Shown piece by piece: positions 2,189 to 34,451 of a stretch of 42,975 nt of DNA; the stretch's first letter is position 1; every line of letters starts with the position of its first letter. The notes beneath the pieces are model-generated. The model had not been told where the DNA came from and made no database searches. It saw nothing but the letters and a program-made list of their open reading frames with translations. Made by a program: the position numbers and the translations under genes. Source of the DNA: a virus; IMG/VR virus record IMGVR_UViG_3300006880_000029, positions 1-42,975 of that record. The stretch is one strand, 5' to 3'.

Positions 2189-3376
2189 TCAACGATCGCG
2201 AATGAGCCACTCGCGTTCACCATCGGGTTTTCCGGTTCGCTCACCGAGGTTGCCATCCAGCGCGTTGCGCACCTGCGTGGCTATCCACCTGCCGCACTGG
2301 ACCGTGATACCCTTACCCCACGTCGCCTTCAGACTTCCCATGTGCCGCAGTGGCATGATGTTCCAGTTATCCGGAAATCCCATGACGCGTGCCGCCTCGC
2401 GATGTGTGATCGTGCGCGGTTCGTACGGATGGAGCACCGCGTCGAGAGCGGCACCCGTAATCACGCGTGCCGGCTTCTCTGGATCCCACCTAATAACGGT
2501 CGTGAAGCCCATGTGCCACTCGTTGGCCATGAGCTTGTCCTTCATACCGTTCCACGACGGCGGCAGGTAGCCAAACGTCTCGTAGCAGTGCTTCGCCATC
2601 TGTCCAATGTGCCAACCGGACGGCCAGCCACCGTCACGCTCGGCGAGTGCCATGAGGTCGAGCGCCCGACGAATCGGAACGCCGTCGCGCGACGCGTGGC
2701 CGTCGAACGTCGTGTTGACGCGCACGCCCTCGCGCTCTCCCCACCACGTCGCGGGTCGTCGGTAGGGCTGCTGCTGCCAGGTCAGCGCGTGTCCACGTAG
2801 ATCGTCCCAGATCTCACGCAGAATCGGCTTGCGCACACGCGGATACGTAACGCCGAACGGCACGCGCGACGCGACCCAGAAGTACCGTGGGCGACGAGCG
2901 GCGCCTCCCAGTTCGATCGCGTCCTGGAACACGTGGTACAGCTCGTACTTGAGGCCGGTGAGCTCCTCGAGCTTGGCGCGCAGCGCGGTCATCAACGAGC
3001 GGCCACCTGAGTACGCAAGACGCACAGATTCCATTACCACAATGGTTGGTCGAACGCGCGCCGCGTACTCCATCAGTGCCCACATGCACGCGTTGACCTT
3101 GGCGTCGATTCCTCGATGTCGCTGGTCGGTCATGGCAGAGAAGCCACTACACGGCGGGTTGGCTGCCACGAAGTCAATCTCACGCGGCGCGTGCCACGTG
3201 GTGTAGTCGCAGGCCTGCGACGTCCAGTTCTGGCCCAGTAGGTGTCGATTCACGAGGCAGTTTTTCATGCCGAACCCGCCCTGTTGCTCGACCTTGTGAA
3301 CGAGCTCGAAGCCGGCCTGCACCACTCCGAGGTCAAATCCACCGGCGAAGCTCTGACACGCGATGAATCGATACAC
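2189..3376 (-). CDS. DNA (cytosine-5-)methyltransferase
   Basis: 395 residues. It transfers a methyl group from S-adenosylmethionine to C5 of cytosine in DNA. Motif I is FAGGFDLG (residues 10-17), motif IV is NPPCSGFS with catalytic Cys76, motif VI is the variant VMESVRL (ESV rather than ENV), motif VIII is RRPRYFW, and the C-terminal HREAARVMGFP is the conserved motif IX/X region. The first half of the enzyme is complete and the target-recognition region follows. Start GTG has TAGGA upstream. No restriction endonuclease is adjacent, so it probably protects phage DNA or marks it. It sits downstream of the sugar and nucleotide cassette, which raises the question how it works with the possible modified cytosine proposed for this phage. 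Confidence 0.85.
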   Translation of the reverse strand: MYRFIACQSFAGGFDLGVVQAGFELVHKVEQQGGFGMKNCLVNRHLLGQNWTSQACDYTTWHAPREIDFVAANPPCSGFSAMTDQRHRGIDAKVNACMWALMEYAARVRPTIVVMESVRLAYSGGRSLMTALRAKLEELTGLKYELYHVFQDAIELGGAARRPRYFWVASRVPFGVTYPRVRKPILREIWDDLRGHALTWQQQPYRRPATWWGEREGVRVNTTFDGHASRDGVPIRRALDLMALAERDGGWPSGWHIGQMAKHCYETFGYLPPSWNGMKDKLMANEWHMGFTTVIRWDPEKPARVITGAALDAVLHPYEPRTITHREAARVMGFPDNWNIMPLRHMGSLKATWGKGITVQCGRWIATQVRNALDGNLGERTGKPDGEREWLIRDR

Positions 3377-6258: not shown

Positions 6259-7610
6259 AGACCGAGTCTTCCTTCAATAAGTTGAACATGCAACAACTTC
6301 TCACACGCCTGGTCGTAAAGTGCACGCTGCGCGCGAATCAACCACAACCACGCGTCGCGATTCTCGTTAAGATACTTGACGCGCTTCTCAAGTTCGTTGG
6401 GGTCAGTGACGCGCAACCACCGCGCTAGGTTAGCGAGTTTCTCGTCGGCAACGGCGCCGGACAACGCCTGGCGCAACGTGGGAATGATGTGCCCCTGGGT
6501 GTCGTAGTCCGGATGAAAGAAGCACACCGTGCCCACGGCGAACGCCTGCCAAGGCTTGGTGGTCGCCCAGCCCGATCCTGAACTCGGCGTTGTGAGTGTG
6601 CAACGTACCGAACGCAACTTGTCGTAGTACACCTCAGCCGGCGCGGGTTCGACCGCGTAGCCAACGTTTTCAGGAAGCTCAAGCTGCGCCTTCGACTTGT
6701 CTGACCACTTGCCGTGTACGAACGCCGGACGCAGTGGAACCACGTACTCCATCATGGCGGCGAGACGATTACGCTTGACGTACGCGCGTGCCTCGTTGAT
6801 GAACAGTCCGAAGTGCTCGCGACGTTCCCAGTCGGTGCTGAACCGAGAGTCGATGTGCTCCGGCAGCACACCGCAGATCTCGAGTCCCGAGTACACGTAC
6901 CGCTGGGTGGCGTTCCACACGTGGCCGGTCTCGTCGACCTGCGCGTCAAACCCGCACTCGGCCGGTGTTCGCGGATCACGGTAACGCTCAAACTTCTCAT
7001 TCTTGGTGAACTCGTATTGCGCGAGAATTGGCAGACGCTGCGGCCACTTCAAGTCGCGCGGCTTCGGGTAGTTGCGCGGGTCTGGAACCAGCCAGATTTC
7101 CTCGTAGCGCAACGGATCCCGCTCGCGGAACGCGTTGATACCGCGAAGGATGTACGAGGCGTAGAGGGTGAACGACTTCTGCGGTTGAGTGTAGTCGTTG
7201 TCCTCATACGAGGTTCCGATCTTCGGCAGTGGTGAGTTGGACGTTCCGTGCTGACCGGCCCAGACGATCAGGCCATCAAGCTGTTCGAACAGTGGGCGCG
7301 TGTAATGGTCGTAGACCGCGATCACGTGTTGAAGATCGTCACCTGTGATGCGTTGTGGCTGATCACGTCCGGCCACGTCACGCTTCACAAGTGGCATCAA
7401 CTCGGTCCACGGATTGGTGACGTTCGCCGGCAACCCCACCTCGTGAGGCTGCTCCAGCGAGTTTCGACCTACGATGATCCACTCGTGCTCGGGGTGACGC
7501 GTGGCGAGCGTCTTCAGCAGCAGCGGCGGCTCGTCATCACCGCCCACGACTCCCCACTTCGCCGGACTGAGTGGCATGGCTCGACTGAGCTTGCAGTAAC
7601 CTATCTTCAC
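6255..7610 (-). CDS. Prob. GT-B-type glycosyltransferase
   Basis: 451 residues from GTG at 7610, chosen because TAGGAG lies four bases upstream; a longer frame exists but has no binding site. The N-terminus VKIGYCKLSRAMPLSP looks like the first strand and loop of a Rossmann domain. Near residue 335-375 the order SGSGWATTKPWQAFAVGTVC and FFHPDYDTQG is the kind of C-terminal donor-binding site seen in GT-B enzymes (Lys/Pro-Trp-Gln, 'G-T-V', then acidic residue). The family match is weak elsewhere. First gene of the string 6255-5170-4169-3579, which overlaps codon by codon. It is probably a glycosyltransferase. Confidence 0.5.
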   Translation of the reverse strand: MKIGYCKLSRAMPLSPAKWGVVGGDDEPPLLLKTLATRHPEHEWIIVGRNSLEQPHEVGLPANVTNPWTELMPLVKRDVAGRDQPQRITGDDLQHVIAVYDHYTRPLFEQLDGLIVWAGQHGTSNSPLPKIGTSYEDNDYTQPQKSFTLYASYILRGINAFRERDPLRYEEIWLVPDPRNYPKPRDLKWPQRLPILAQYEFTKNEKFERYRDPRTPAECGFDAQVDETGHVWNATQRYVYSGLEICGVLPEHIDSRFSTDWERREHFGLFINEARAYVKRNRLAAMMEYVVPLRPAFVHGKWSDKSKAQLELPENVGYAVEPAPAEVYYDKLRSVRCTLTTPSSGSGWATTKPWQAFAVGTVCFFHPDYDTQGHIIPTLRQALSGAVADEKLANLARWLRVTDPNELEKRVKYLNENRDAWLWLIRAQRALYDQACEKLLHVQLIEGRLGL

Positions 7611-19777: not shown

Positions 19778-20041
19778 TTATCGCTCGTTCTTCGTGTCGT
19801 CCACGATCGCGGTTGGGTCGTGGTTTACGCCGAAGATGATGTCATTCATCTCAAGAATGCGATCACCGAGTTCGTGAAGCTGCGTGCCGAGCACGTACAC
19901 AGCTCGCGACGTGTCCCTGACCTGGCCGCCAGGAACCATGGTGTCAGCCACCGCATCGAGTGCGCGTGCCGCGTCGCGCCACGTGCGTTGAATGACGGCG
20001 ATTCGTTCGTCACGATGACGTCGCGCGGCATTCTCGTTCAC
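19778..20041 (-). CDS. Small hypothetical protein
   Basis: 87 residues, GTG start inside the end of the TROVE gene. Almost entirely helical, with an Arg/Ala-rich first half (ARRHRDERIAVIQRTWRDAARAL) and an acidic second half. Coupled to the Ro60 gene by overlap, so it is probably made with it. No known family. Confidence 0.55.
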   Translation of the reverse strand: MNENAARRHRDERIAVIQRTWRDAARALDAVADTMVPGGQVRDTSRAVYVLGTQLHELGDRILEMNDIIFGVNHDPTAIVDDTKNER

Positions 20042-21711
20042 ACGTCACCGGCCACGAAGTCGCTGAGCATGTTCGGCGTCGCCGAGTCGAAGCCGACCAC
20101 GTCGAGCGTGCGCGCGTCGGTGACGTCGCCGATCCTCGACCGCGTCGCGGTCATACCCACGACGCCGAGCGCTGCTGGAATACCCATCGACTGACGGTAG
20201 CGCGTCAGCGCCTCGTGCGGGTGAATCGTACCGGCCCACGTCTCGTTGTCGGTGTAGATGAAGAACGCGTCAAACTCGGCGCGACTCTGGAGCGCGCTCG
20301 TCATCGGCAGCGCGCAGTCCGTGCCGCCCCAGGACACGCCGCGCATGACGCGCAGCACGTCGTCGAGCCGCTGTCGTGGCGAGATGTTCAACGTGATGAT
20401 GCCGCGACGTCGAGGATCGCCACCGAAACCGAGACCCGATCCGGACGCCGAGGCGAACGCCACAACCTCGTACTCCGTCTCGACGTTGGCCGTCACGAGC
20501 GCCAGCGCGGCCGACGCCTCCATGCAGGTGATCGGCAGACTCGACACCTTCGTGTTCATCGACGGTGAGACGTCCAGCGCGAGACGCAGCCGCTGGCCGG
20601 TCGATCGCACGGCGCCGAACGCCGCGTAGAACGCGGTATCGAGCGCGTCCACGATCCGGCGCGACGGGATCCAGCGCGTCTCGCCACGCTCGCTGTGGCC
20701 CTGCGCGTACGTGCGCTGTGCCACGAGGACGTTGATCGGGTGTACGCGTCCGTTACGCAGCCGCTCGGCGTCAGTGAGCTGGTGCACGACCTCGTTGGTC
20801 CAACCGCCGGTCGCCGGCAGTAGTCCCAAGTTGGTGAGACGCGGAAGCTGCCGCAGCAGCGCGGTCTGCGGCAGACCACCCTCGAGGAACGCCTCCCACA
20901 CCGCGACCTGGTTCAGCGCCTGCGTCGGCAGTGCCTCCCACGGCAGGCCGTACGTCTTGACACAGTCGACCCAGTGACGCGCACCGCCGGCGCCCTGCGC
21001 GCGCACGAAGCCCTCGACGACGCGCAGCTCATCGTAACCGCTCGTCATTGCCAGCTCGTCCTGAGCAGTCACCTTGGCGTGATGACAGATCCAGTCAAAG
21101 AGCGCTCGTCGAACCAGGTCGTCCGCGGCGGCCTTGGGCTTCGCCAGGCGCAGCAGGTCACGGTGCGTCCAACCCTCGCGCTGCCGGTACTTCACGACCT
21201 GGTAAGCGAGACGACCGACCGGCTGCTTGAGGTACCAGTTCTCGATCGCTCGGTCGAGCACCCGACCGCGTCCACGGAACTGCTTCACGTAGGCATTGAA
21301 CTGCATGAGATGCGTGCCGGTGCGCGCCACCTGCGGCAGCGCCTCGGCCGCCGCGCGTCGCGTATCCACGTCGCCGTGAGCGATGGCGATGGCCAGCGCG
21401 AACAGGGCCGGCTGGTTGCGCGGCGCGCGCCCACCCTGCGAGATCGCGACGATCTCGGTCACGAGTGCGTGGCCGTCGGTTCGCGCCAGCTCCAGCACGA
21501 CCTGGGCGTTGTCCTTGGCCAGGTCGGGAGCGGTCGCGTAGTACGTGCCACCGTCGACACCGAGCGTCAGGAAGCGCCGCAGCCGCTGAAGTGGAGTCAC
21601 CTCGAACGTGAAACCACCCGCCGCGTTGCGCGTTTGCCGTGGATCGGCCGCCTCGGACTGCGGCGTCACGCGCGTCTGCACGGCGCGCAGTGGATCCGTG
21701 AATCCCTTCAT
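20038..21711 (-). CDS. rsr: Ro60/TROVE-domain RNA-binding protein (Rsr)
   Basis: 557 residues; ATG with a GAAGGAG-GTAGGA purine region upstream. The N-terminus DPRQTRNAAGGFTFEVTPLQRLRRFL is the classic TROVE start; the HEAT-repeat ring follows (TYYAT...; ALPQVARTGTHLMQFNAYV; LKQPVGRLAYQVVKYRQREG). The C-terminal von Willebrand A domain has DVSPSM (MIDAS), GGTDCALPM and FIYTDNET. Ro60 binds Y RNAs and misfolded small RNAs, and in bacteria it directs PNPase or takes part in stress and rRNA processing. A phage copy directly downstream of tRNA-like RNAs that resemble Y RNAs is the key context. Confidence 0.9.
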   Translation of the reverse strand: MKGFTDPLRAVQTRVTPQSEAADPRQTRNAAGGFTFEVTPLQRLRRFLTLGVDGGTYYATAPDLAKDNAQVVLELARTDGHALVTEIVAISQGGRAPRNQPALFALAIAIAHGDVDTRRAAAEALPQVARTGTHLMQFNAYVKQFRGRGRVLDRAIENWYLKQPVGRLAYQVVKYRQREGWTHRDLLRLAKPKAAADDLVRRALFDWICHHAKVTAQDELAMTSGYDELRVVEGFVRAQGAGGARHWVDCVKTYGLPWEALPTQALNQVAVWEAFLEGGLPQTALLRQLPRLTNLGLLPATGGWTNEVVHQLTDAERLRNGRVHPINVLVAQRTYAQGHSERGETRWIPSRRIVDALDTAFYAAFGAVRSTGQRLRLALDVSPSMNTKVSSLPITCMEASAALALVTANVETEYEVVAFASASGSGLGFGGDPRRRGIITLNISPRQRLDDVLRVMRGVSWGGTDCALPMTSALQSRAEFDAFFIYTDNETWAGTIHPHEALTRYRQSMGIPAALGVVGMTATRSRIGDVTDARTLDVVGFDSATPNMLSDFVAGDV

Positions 21712-21828
21712 TCCTACATCTCCTTCGTTCCGAAACGTGGGCCGCGAACGTGGTATGTGCCGATCGGGTATGTGTTTTCACCAATTGAAAGATAACCGAC
21801 CAACGAGCAGTTCGCGACCCACGTCGTG

Positions 21829-21986
21829 AGCCTTACGATGAGCGTGTGTCCGTCGTCGAATCAAGCGGCGCGCTAACCAACTGCGCCATCACCCGAAGCG
21901 AATTGCACCCCGCCGGGCGAGTAGGACTCGAACCTACGACCTCCGCCAACCAAAGATAATCGATCGACTTCAGCTCATCTTTAGCT
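21829..21986 (-). ncRNA. Permuted tRNA-like RNA, Pro(UGG)-like
   Basis: Order on the minus strand: leader with GATGAGC (21979-21973), loop TTTGGTT with UGG at 21952-21950, T arm GTAGG-TTCGAGT-CCTAC, 3' acceptor TCGCCCG (21920-21914), 18-base linker, 5' acceptor CGGGTGA (21895-21889), D arm GCGC...GCGC, CCGCT, trailer GCTCATC (21843-21837). Acceptor strands pair 7/7 (one G-U). CCGCT pairs with GGCGG across the break to form the anticodon stem. Leader and trailer pair in a 7-bp helix. The D arm and C1-G72 are typical of tRNA-Pro. Confidence 0.75.
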
Positions 21987-21996
21987 GTGAACACTG

Positions 21997-22116
21997 GGTG
22001 CGTGAACGTGTGAACGCAACTCGGAGTGCCACCCCGCGTGTGGCGTCCGTCGCCGGTTGAGGCGCTGGACAGGAATCGAACCTGCGATAACCGAGTCATC
22101 TTCAGTTCACGACACC
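21997..22116 (-). ncRNA. Permuted tRNA-like RNA lacking an anticodon arm (YrlA-like)
   Basis: Leader GGTG-T-CGTGAAC (22116-22105) pairs with trailer GTTCACG-CACC (22007-21997), 11 bp with one bulged base. Inside, CTCGG pairs with CCGAG. T arm GCAGG-TTCGATT-CCTGT and CCAGCGCC are followed by TCAACC and GGCGACGG; this acceptor-like helix has two mismatches. The D arm is GCCA...TGGC. There is no room for an anticodon arm, so this unit looks more like a Y-RNA tRNA mimic than a tRNA. Confidence 0.6.
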
Positions 22117-22146: not shown

Positions 22147-22293
22147 GAGTGATCCGCTGAGCGTGCAAGTGCTTTCGGCGTTTAGGCGCTCTCGGCCGCT
22201 GAGCTACGAGCCTCGGAAGGCTCGGTGGGATTTGAACCCACGTCTCTCCATTTGCAGTGGATAACCGATCGCGGTCAGCTCCACGGATCACTC
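22147..22293 (-). ncRNA. Permuted tRNA-like RNA, Cys(GCA)-like
   Basis: Leader (from 22293) and trailer (to 22147) form a helix of about 16 bp with one G-U and one mismatch, incl. GAGTGATCC/GGATCACTC. Next come TCGG/CCGA, an anticodon hairpin CCA-CTGCAAA-TGG (GCA at 22255-22253), T arm GTGGG-TTCAAAT-CCCAC, 3' acceptor CGAGCCT (22224-22218), tetraloop TCCG, 5' acceptor AGGCTCG (22213-22207) and D arm GCTC...GAGC. Acceptor strands pair 7/7. The linker is a UNCG-type tetraloop, which suggests a stable capped stem. Confidence 0.8.
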
Positions 22294-22307
22294 TTAAGTT
22301 GTTACGC

Positions 22308-22452
22308 GTAAGACGCTGAGCGTGTGAGTGCTTTCGGGTTTTAGCGCTCTGCCAGTTGAGCTACGGGCCCAGGTGGTGGACCCGACAGGACTCGAACCTG
22401 CAACCTCTCCATTAGAAGTGGATAACCGATCGCGTTCAGCTCAGCTTCTCAC
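22308..22452 (-). ncRNA. Permuted tRNA-like RNA, Arg(UCU)-like
   Basis: Leader GTGAGAAGCTGAGC (22452-22439) pairs with trailer GCTCAGCGTCTTAC (22321-22308), 13 of 14 including a G-U. Then TCGG/CCGA, anticodon hairpin TCCA-CTTCTAA-TGGA (UCU at 22416-22414), T arm GCAGG-TTCGAGT-CCTGT, 3' acceptor CGGGTCC with ACCA encoded after it, 5' acceptor GGGCCCG (22370-22364) and D arm GCTC...GAGC. Acceptor strands pair 7/7 (one G-U). An encoded CCA inside the linker hints at a tRNA origin. Confidence 0.8.
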
Positions 22453-22624: not shown

Positions 22625-22699
22625 CATCCTCCCAGGGATTCGAACCCCGAACCTTCACGTTCGTAGCGTGACGCTCTGTCCTGGTTGAGCTAGGAGGAT
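22625..22699 (-). tRNA. tRNA-Arg(ACG)
   Basis: Ordinary cloverleaf order, 75 bases without CCA. Acceptor ATCCTCC/GGAGGAT (7/7), D stem GCTC/GAGC, anticodon arm TCACG-CTACGAA-CGTGA, T arm CGGGG-TTCGAAT-CCCTG, discriminator G. It is not permuted and lies between permuted units, so both kinds are mixed in one cluster. Confidence 0.9.
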
Positions 22700-22789: not shown

Positions 22790-23109
22790 GGTCGCGTGCA
22801 CCTTTAAGGATACCACCGAGCTTGAGGTAAGCGTTGTGCCTTGCCTTTAGGCCACACCGGCGTGGTAGCGGAGACCGGATTCGAACCGGTGACCTTCGGA
22901 TTATGAGCCCGACGCGCTGCCGAACTGCGCTACTCCGCGTTGGTGGGAGCCGAGCACCCGGATGGTATGCTCGGTTCCCGAGGTTCCTAACTCGTGATAA
23001 CCCACGCCAGTAGGCAACCAGAGTCGAGGGTGAAGGAACCCGTGCCGGTGGCTGGACTTGAACCAGCATCTCAACGTTCTAGGTGGTGTATCCCGTAGAT
23101 CACACGACC
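22790..23109 (-). ncRNA. Permuted tRNA-like RNA with a tRNA-Met inside its linker
   Basis: Leader GGTCGTGTG (23109-23101) pairs 9/9 with trailer CACGCGACC (22798-22790); GGATAC and CACC pair with GTATCC and GGTG further in. T arm GCTGG-TTCAAGT-CCAGC; 3' acceptor CACCGGC (23050-23044) pairs 7/7 with GCCGGTG (22861-22855), about 180 bases away. CGTTG (3' part) pairs with CAACG (22836-22832) as an anticodon stem. The anticodon itself cannot be called. The linker holds the complete tRNA-Met(CAT), ending one base before the 5' acceptor. Confidence 0.65.
22863..22939 (-). tRNA. tRNA-Met(CAT)
   Basis: 77 bases including encoded CCA. Acceptor GCGGAG/CTCCGC pairs from position 2; position 1-72 is C and T, an unpaired end. 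Anticodon arm TCGGG-CTCATAA-TCCGA, T arm ACCGG-TTCGAAT-CCGGT, D stem GCGC/GCGC. The open 1-72 pair is a feature of initiator tRNA, but three G-C pairs in the anticodon stem are missing, so I call it Met without stating elongator or initiator. Confidence 0.85.
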
Positions 23110-23128: not shown

Positions 23129-23335
23129 GTAGCGGATCAACGTAACCGTGATTCCGTCTGGTCTTGCCTCTGCCGATTGGGCTACCTCGACGTCGCGAGG
23201 AGGAAGGACCAACTTCCTCCCCGCTGGCCACAGCAACCAACGTCACGGTGTGACGTCGTGCCGAGGGTAGGACTCGAACCTACACCGGAGATCAGACGTA
23301 TGAACTTGTCAAGGATCAACTTCAGCTTGCGCTAC
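23129..23335 (-). ncRNA. Permuted tRNA-like RNA, first of the cluster
   Basis: The leader carries GCTGAAGTTGATC, nearly identical to that of the Pro-like unit. T arm GTAGG-TTCGAGT-CCTAC; 3' acceptor CCTCGGC (23266-23260) pairs 7/7 (one G-U) with GTCGAGG (23191-23185) after a ~70-base linker that forms two hairpins. The D arm GCC...GGC follows. CGTCTG (23298-23293) pairs with CAGACG (23160-23155), and GTAGCG with CGCTAC at the outside. No clear anticodon arm is seen; a CAT could lie in the loop. Confidence 0.6.
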
Positions 23336-34025: not shown

Positions 34026-34026
34026 G

Positions 34027-34093
34027 AGCCCCGGCTGGGACTCGAACCCAGCCTCGTCGACCTGATCGGGATCGACGCGCGACCTCGCGGGGC
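34027..34093 (-). tRNA. tRNA-like element with a shrunken anticodon arm
   Basis: 67 bases in normal (not permuted) order: acceptor GCCCCG/CGGGGC (six pairs), D stem GGTC/GATC, T arm CTGGG-TTCGAGT-CCCAG. Between D and T arms only a small hairpin CGA-TCAGG-TCG fits; no 5-bp, 7-loop anticodon arm. Either a degenerate tRNA or a tRNA mimic. No anticodon is assigned. Confidence 0.4.
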
Positions 34094-34097
34094 GCGG

Positions 34098-34451
34098 CTA
34101 GCGCACGCCGCGCAGCGCGGCGTACAGCGCGACGGCCGCCACCAGTAGGCTAAGAATGACGGCGACGCGCTGCACCGGCGTCCAGCGGCGGTCCGACTCG
34201 CGCAGTCGCGACTCGCCGTCGGCGTGCAGCGCCGCGGCGGTCGACGCCGCCGAGGCTGCCTGACTGACCGCCTGATCGGCCAGCCGCTGCAGGTCCAGCT
34301 CCACCTGGGTCAGCGTCTGCGCGATGTCCGCGAGGTGCCCGTTGATCGCCGAGAAGTGCCGGTCGTGATCGGCGAGACGCGTCTCGATCGCACCGGCGGT
34401 GACGCCGCGCTCGTACTCGCCACGCACGCCGCTCTGGGCATCGCTGGACAC
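34098..34451 (-). CDS. Coiled-coil protein with C-terminal membrane anchor
   Basis: 117 residues from GTG at 34451. ETRLADHDRHFSAINGHLADIAQTLTQVELDLQRLADQ is a heptad-type helix, then Ala-rich AASAASTAAALHADGES and a final hydrophobic segment (VAVILSLLVAAVALYAAL). The shape resembles phage tail-anchored or hemolysin-XhlA-like proteins (helix plus C-terminal TM). Lysis function is a guess. Confidence 0.55.
   Translation of the reverse strand: MSSDAQSGVRGEYERGVTAGAIETRLADHDRHFSAINGHLADIAQTLTQVELDLQRLADQAVSQAASAASTAAALHADGESRLRESDRRWTPVQRVAVILSLLVAAVALYAALRGVR

Follow-up and report, generated by a model that had tools for sequence, protein, structure and literature searches.

What is the RNA encoded next to a viral Ro60 gene when it has the T and D arms of a transfer RNA (tRNA) and no anticodon arm, and how does it relate to the more complete tRNA-like units beside it? 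We addressed this question in the virus record IMGVR_UViG_3300006880_000029, all 42,975 bases of which form the window analyzed here. An array of RNA units runs along the minus strand from 23,380 to 21,720 and terminates at an open reading frame (ORF), 20038-21711, with Pfam matches to vWA_Ro60 (1.4e-51) and TROVE (2.5e-43). Relatives of this Ro60 homologue (identity up to 58%) occur in 340 phage records, the hosts being mostly Mycobacterium, Streptomyces, Gordonia, and Microbacterium. Taking the evidence together, we consider it likely that the unit at 21997-22116 (the plain unit) is a plain Y RNA partner of Ro60, and that its sister units carry a Y stem on a permuted tRNA fold and act as mimics. 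The plain unit and the neighboring gene comprise the following elements.

21997-22116, minus strand: very probable Y RNA that lacks an anticodon arm and is built from a Y helix (ACUCGG/CCGAGU), a T arm, an acceptor-like hairpin, and a D-like arm, from sequence and fold
22086-22090, minus strand: UUAUC, the sole bases separating Y helix and T arm, from sequence
22069-22085, minus strand: T arm GCAGG-UUCGAUU-CCUGU, T loop at 22080-22074, from sequence and fold
22047-22068, minus strand: capped acceptor-like stem CCAGCGCC-UCAACC-GGCGACGG, from sequence and fold
22028-22044, minus strand: D-like arm GCCAC-ACGCGGG-GUGGC, from sequence and fold
20038-21711, minus strand: Ro60 homologue (TROVE and vWA_Ro60) of 557 amino acids, from Pfam, co-directional with the RNA array and located downstream of it

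The anatomy of the plain unit is confirmed. Its Y helix pairs 22096-22091 with 22024-22019 inside an outer stem GUGAAC/GUUCAC, and since only five bases lie between this helix and the T arm, the anticodon arm of a tRNA cannot fit and is absent. At the other end, three bases (ACU) lead from the D-like arm to the trailer strand CCGAGU. The unconstrained minimum-energy fold of this ~120-nucleotide RNA (-61.4 kcal/mol, z -2.7, with equally good folding in 2/200 shuffles) is the T/acceptor/D arrangement within a longer stem, plus the outer stem, the acceptor-like stem containing a 2x2 mismatch. An earlier note on this DNA had described exactly this spacing of five bases, a D arm running straight into the trailer helix, and a T loop, D arm, and capped acceptor-like stem that remain in place, and sequence and fold agree with it. 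It had further proposed that the unit is a plain YrlA-like RNA and suggested the Rfam YrlA model as a check. The plan of the unit bears this out: its elements follow the YrlA order given by the Rfam consensus structure (CS) line, i.e., Y stem, T arm, capped acceptor stem, and D arm, all within a long end-to-end stem and without an anticodon arm. The length falls within the 90-150 nucleotides described for YrlA (PMC8394870), and the Ro60 ORF lies ~0.3 kb downstream on the same strand. The Rfam check itself failed, which counts against the proposal, as the alignment spans the full model (21997-22112) with a nonsignificant score of 17.1 bits (cut-off 69, E 0.37); we therefore term the unit YrlA-like and do not assign it to RF02553. 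A tRNA-Sec, for which Rfam gives 21.1 bits, was rejected because this is under the cut-off of 47. The pattern does not arise by chance. The order [Y helix]-GUUA(UC)-[T arm]-[acceptor hairpin]-[D arm]-[Y helix] recurs in eleven further units, all of them at Ro60 genes of other viral contigs. Their Y helices covary (64/72 positions paired vs 52.9 with shuffled partners), and at least five adjoin units with an anticodon arm (loci L048, L049, L051, L052, and L082). Because a Ro60 gene adjoins the unit and 11 similar armless viral units also lie at Ro60 genes, a Ro60-linked Y RNA of the plain YrlA plan is the best reading, and we hold it with considerable confidence.

The neighbors of the plain unit in the window are more elaborate.

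22322-22441, minus strand: permuted unit with anticodon UCU (Arg), acceptor halves linked by ACCACCU, which contains ACCA; 100.8 bits with our covariance model R2
22164-22280, minus strand: permuted unit with anticodon GCA (Cys), acceptor halves linked by UCCG; 81.3 bits with model R2
21845-21975, minus strand: permuted unit, Pro-like, UGG, with anticodon loop UUUGGUU; 54.6 bits with model R2 (E 1.3e-13)

In the Arg and Cys units, both of which belong to the training set of model R2, a hairpin with a loop of seven nucleotides lies 5' of the T arm (UCCA-CUUCUAA-UGGAG and UCCA-CUGCAAA-UGGAG, respectively). The anticodon-stem pairs 27:43 and 28:42 are completed by bases immediately after the D arm, from which it follows that the Y stem emerges from the anticodon stem between 28 and 29. 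The Pro-like unit has an 18-nucleotide link between its acceptor halves and a U37, so its parse is less clean. The earlier note had called these three units intermediate between tRNA and Y RNA, which is an understatement: Arg and Cys are Y RNAs with a whole permuted tRNA fold, and the Pro-like unit follows this plan less cleanly. The first Rfam call, which joined the Cys and Arg units into one intron-bearing tRNA (22217-22370, 95-nucleotide insert), was rejected because each acceptor half pairs perfectly with the half lying 4-7 nucleotides away rather than with the partner that this call requires.

That sister units have a complete circularly permuted tRNA fold, with the 3' half before the 5' half and a complete cloverleaf, is in our view practically certain, and the case is carried by their recurrence and covariation. 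Ro60 loci drawn from a phage collection, IMG/VR, and bacterial genomes (1.7 Mb in total) were searched for a T arm, an acceptor strand, a short link, an acceptor strand, and a D arm in this order. This yielded 174 units, 106 with an anticodon hairpin, and one dinucleotide shuffle of the same sequence yielded a single unit and no anticodon hairpin. Removing from 66 nonredundant units the six that ARAGORN can read as ordinary tRNAs left 60 (34 viral and 26 bacterial), in which we tested pairs that had played no part in unit selection. Pair 28:42 is Watson-Crick in 49/60 (U-A 21, C-G 19, G-C 8; shuffle mean 20.5), pair 27:43 in 53/60 (shuffle 36.0), and the tertiary Levitt pair 15:48 is present in 49/53 (G-C 35, A-U 14; shuffle 29.7), each with p<=1e-4; when base 28 is read from the contiguous strand instead, only 19/60 pair. 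A purine occupies position 37 in 55 of the 60 units, and the set displays 30 different anticodons. A MAFFT alignment of 44 units that was not fitted to the structure gives the same picture. The helix 27-28/42-43 is 95.5% paired (one of its pairs being AU 17, GC 13, CG 9, GU 4, and UA 1), the acceptor halves, 3-8 nucleotides apart, covary at all seven pairs, and the covariation score of the whole structure is 0.617 vs 0.184 for shuffles and at most 0.127 when slid. Put back into normal order, 65/66 units are called tRNAs with the expected anticodon by ARAGORN, as against 0/66 in native order, and so are 509/1302 chimeras of halves. A short GGUU/AACC-type helix (82.8% paired) lies beside the break. 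Rfam reports no YrlA, nor anything else covering the units, in 15 Ro loci that contain them. The architecture, its covariation, the linkage to Ro60, and the recurrence in phages and bacteria can be regarded as established at the level of sequence.

The linkage to Ro60 also holds across genomes. TROVE was found in 5/149 Actinomycetota genomes, and full-length matches above 54 bits to our model were found in 5/5 of these and in 0/144 of the others, with one such match near the TROVE gene in each of the five. One of the five belongs to the training set of the model, which replaced an earlier covariance model whose automatic structure had missed the anticodon stem. Among the four others, two have a clean anticodon arm, which one of them shows in an additional unit located on a different contig; the remaining two gave model matches and no clean anticodon arm, which tells against our reading.

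Two alternative explanations have to be weighed against this picture. The permuted arrays could be an artefact that arises where ordinary tRNA genes follow one another and the 3' part of a gene is read together with the 5' part of its successor. It is true that six of the 66 units are called ordinary tRNAs by ARAGORN and that model R2, which is unspecific below ~54 bits, gives tandem tRNAs scores of about 40-50 bits. Nevertheless, dropping these six units alters nothing, and this, together with the covariation of the closely spaced acceptor halves and the near-empty shuffle, refutes the artefact for the bulk of the units, leaving it a negligible probability. Alternatively, the plain unit could be a functionless decayed copy of an anticodon-arm unit, generated by a deletion between GGUUAUC and the T stem. 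This would fit the CGGUUAUC signature that it has in common with its neighbors and its low scores, both with YrlA and with model R2 (17.3 bits). Its stable fold and the 11 viral loci with the same plan, with their covarying Y helices and, in at least five of them, neighbors bearing anticodon arms, argue against decay, which we judge very improbable.

What would such RNAs do? We propose that the long stem of the plain unit is presumably the Ro60 site, and that its T/acceptor/D module imitates a tRNA in part. The sisters would place the same Y stem on a complete permuted tRNA fold, leaving the anticodon stem between 28 and 29, with a short loop closing the acceptor end and a seven-nucleotide anticodon loop with U33 and a purine at 37 on display. 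A Ro60 ribonucleoprotein (RNP) might use this tRNA-like module to hold tRNA-handling proteins. In that case the anticodon-arm units would probably not serve translation; as stable tRNA mimics they would bind or keep occupied enzymes that recognize the anticodon loop, anticodon nucleases for example, and this may be their most economical role. That these units are mimics and not tRNA precursors is in our estimation probable, though less firmly so than the nature of the plain unit. That they act as anticodon-nuclease decoys in particular is a tentative idea, less likely to be right than wrong, as it is an analogy: the source for it, in which the tRNA-like domain of YrlA might competitively inhibit an anticodon nuclease, offers a suggestion only (PMC7790460).

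The serious rival is that the anticodon-arm units are real tRNA precursors, from which the Y stem is excised at 28/29, the ends are ligated, and the acceptor loop is opened by RNase P and CCA addition, with Ro60 as a maturation chaperone and the plain unit as a regulatory sibling. If they did mature into working tRNAs in this way, bacteria and phages would have their first circularly permuted tRNA genes, and the emergence of Y RNAs would be linked to the permutation of tRNAs; we regard this as unlikely. Several observations weigh in its favor and against the mimics. The fold is that of a full tRNA, including the Levitt pair, with U33, R37, and A38 retained as in working tRNAs and 30 anticodons represented, the reordered sequences pass ARAGORN, and the split Leu(UAG) unit of the window (see below) resembles a classical permuted tRNA gene. 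An NCCA is found exactly at the tRNA position in 5/61 nonredundant units (four after cleaning) where 1.3 are expected, units with NCCA including the window Arg unit and those of Phabba and Trina, and the absence of CCA elsewhere is weak evidence because many actinobacterial tRNA genes also lack it. RtcB is present in 13/17 bacterial genomes with such loci. Nevertheless, most acceptor ends are closed by loops of 3-8 nucleotides, often UUCG (seven of the 60 units) or GAAA (two), and the anticodon appears uncoupled from the body that carries it. Ser, Leu, or Tyr anticodons occur in ten units whose variable region has 3-5 nucleotides instead of a long arm, G3:U70 is absent from all three Ala-anticodon units, and the discriminator matches the anticodon in 25/64 cases (shuffle 20.3, p 0.088). 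The anticodon has switched from UGU to UCU with 0 other changes in 100 bases in prophage-like viral contigs, and with two other differences in 100 bases in a second lineage (loci L024, L047, L025, and L036). As for ligation, RtcB was found neither in the window nor in any of 32 Ro phages, nor in 4/17 of the bacterial genomes (clean anticodon arms are nevertheless present in units of three of these four, M. wolinskyi and two Cellulomonas), and T4-type Rnl1 occurs in only 2/26 phages. Ligation encoded by the virus itself was rejected for the window, which has no RtcB or RNA_ligase PF09414; Rnl1 PF09511 was also not found there, in a search whose control was uninformative. We therefore favor a tRNA-mimicking Ro60 RNP on three grounds: CCA is missing from most units, the anticodon varies independently of the body, and RtcB is absent from the phages. 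For most sister units the sequence signs point against a mature charged tRNA.

Comparison with known systems highlights both similarities and differences. YrlA (RF02553; Salmonella Typhimurium structure, PDB 6CU1) has the same order as the plain unit, from Y stem through T arm, capped acceptor, and D arm back to Y stem, and its gene likewise adjoins Ro60. YrlA is further characterized by binding to Ro60/Rsr and to an effector such as PNPase, and by D and pseudouridine residues. The circular permutation that relates it to tRNA was established from the Salmonella structure (PMC11472068) and is also seen at the window units, and published descriptions of YrlA include a T arm, a D arm, and an acceptor arm (PMC8394870). 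The differences are that the plain unit scores far below the Rfam cut-off and that the sister units add a full anticodon arm, whereas the Rfam YrlA consensus has four nucleotides between stem and T arm. Permuted tRNA genes, which according to a 2014 review were known in six algae and a single archaeon, Thermofilum pendens (PMC3978253), likewise have the 3' half first, linked acceptor halves, and a full fold when reordered. Their junctions form a bulge-helix-bulge motif and are spliced (PMC3978253), and they differ from the sisters, in which the anticodon stem is interrupted at 28/29, a Y stem is located there, and Ro60 is adjacent. The RNA repair operon rsr-yrlBA-rtcBA (PMC7790460) also combines Ro60 with tRNA-like Y RNAs, the difference being the missing RtcB in the window and the 32 Ro phages. 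Permuted transfer-messenger RNA (tmRNA) also has permuted tRNA-like halves and matches the Arg unit weakly in Rfam (21.7 bits), but the window units have no mRNA-like part or tag, and ARAGORN finds no tmRNA in the window.

Bacterial Y RNAs have so far been described as mimicking three tRNA arms. The large Ro60-linked group studied here adds a fourth, absent from the Rfam model, namely a real anticodon loop with dozens of anticodons, in bacteria and many actinobacteriophages. The literature searched, with key work of the Wolin group outside its coverage, holds no description of phage permuted tRNAs or anticodon-arm Y RNAs. Part of the finding on anticodon-arm Y RNAs may already be known, and priority for them cannot be claimed. 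Wang reportedly noted in 2018 that a highly tRNA-like YrlA is convertible into an amino acid-accepting tRNA. How Ro60/Y RNA particles affect tRNA biology and why phages carry such particles can now be tested, with the plain unit as a control that differs only by its missing anticodon arm.

The rest of the array contains further elements.

23165-23290, minus strand: further permuted unit, T loop at 23278, acceptor 5' strand from 23191, 68-nucleotide link
23044-23081, minus strand: 3' half of a permuted tRNA-Leu(UAG) whose break lies in the anticodon loop, from pairing, shuffles, and ARAGORN
22830-22861, minus strand: 5' half of the same tRNA-Leu(UAG), beyond an ordinary tRNA-Met, from pairing, shuffles, and ARAGORN
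22866-22939, minus strand: ordinary tRNA-Met (CAU), from ARAGORN and Rfam
22625-22699, minus strand: ordinary tRNA-Arg (ACG), from ARAGORN and Rfam
21725-21830, minus strand: stem-loop with a GGUCGGUUAUC...CCGAUCGGCACAUACCACG signature and neither T nor D arm, from fold (z -4.2) and motif

The two Leu(UAG) halves form a perfect cloverleaf (acceptor 7/7, D arm, anticodon stem 5/5) that is matched by 1/3000 shuffles, and when reordered they are called tRNA-Leu(tag) by ARAGORN; their break in the anticodon loop sets this unit apart from those broken at 28/29. The ordinary tRNA-Met sits between both halves (23081-22830, minus strand) and is, with Arg(ACG), the only ordinary tRNA within the array according to ARAGORN, which also calls a tRNA-Arg(gcg) at 34026-34121 (minus strand), distant from the cluster and without Rfam confirmation. 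The unit at 23165-23290 has an unclear anticodon arm. The stem-loop at 21725-21830 lies immediately 5' of the Ro60 start and carries the Y-stem signature; it is perhaps a further Y RNA, of a second type, or an autoregulatory Ro60 site. We count five to seven tandem Y-type RNAs upstream of the Ro60 gene of the window.

Some minor observations concern other Ro60 loci. In two units (L013 at 1240 and L016 at 3835), GCUG or UCUG after the D arm would supply position 29 too, so that the break seems to be at 29/30. In prophiGD43A-5 (L010), an annotated tRNA-Thr at 3247-3325 is the 3' half of a permuted unit with anticodon UGU. In Gordonia phage GMA2 (L012), a Pistol ribozyme (6485-6541, 56.8 bits, above the Rfam cut-off) is located between tRNA genes, immediately downstream of a permuted unit.
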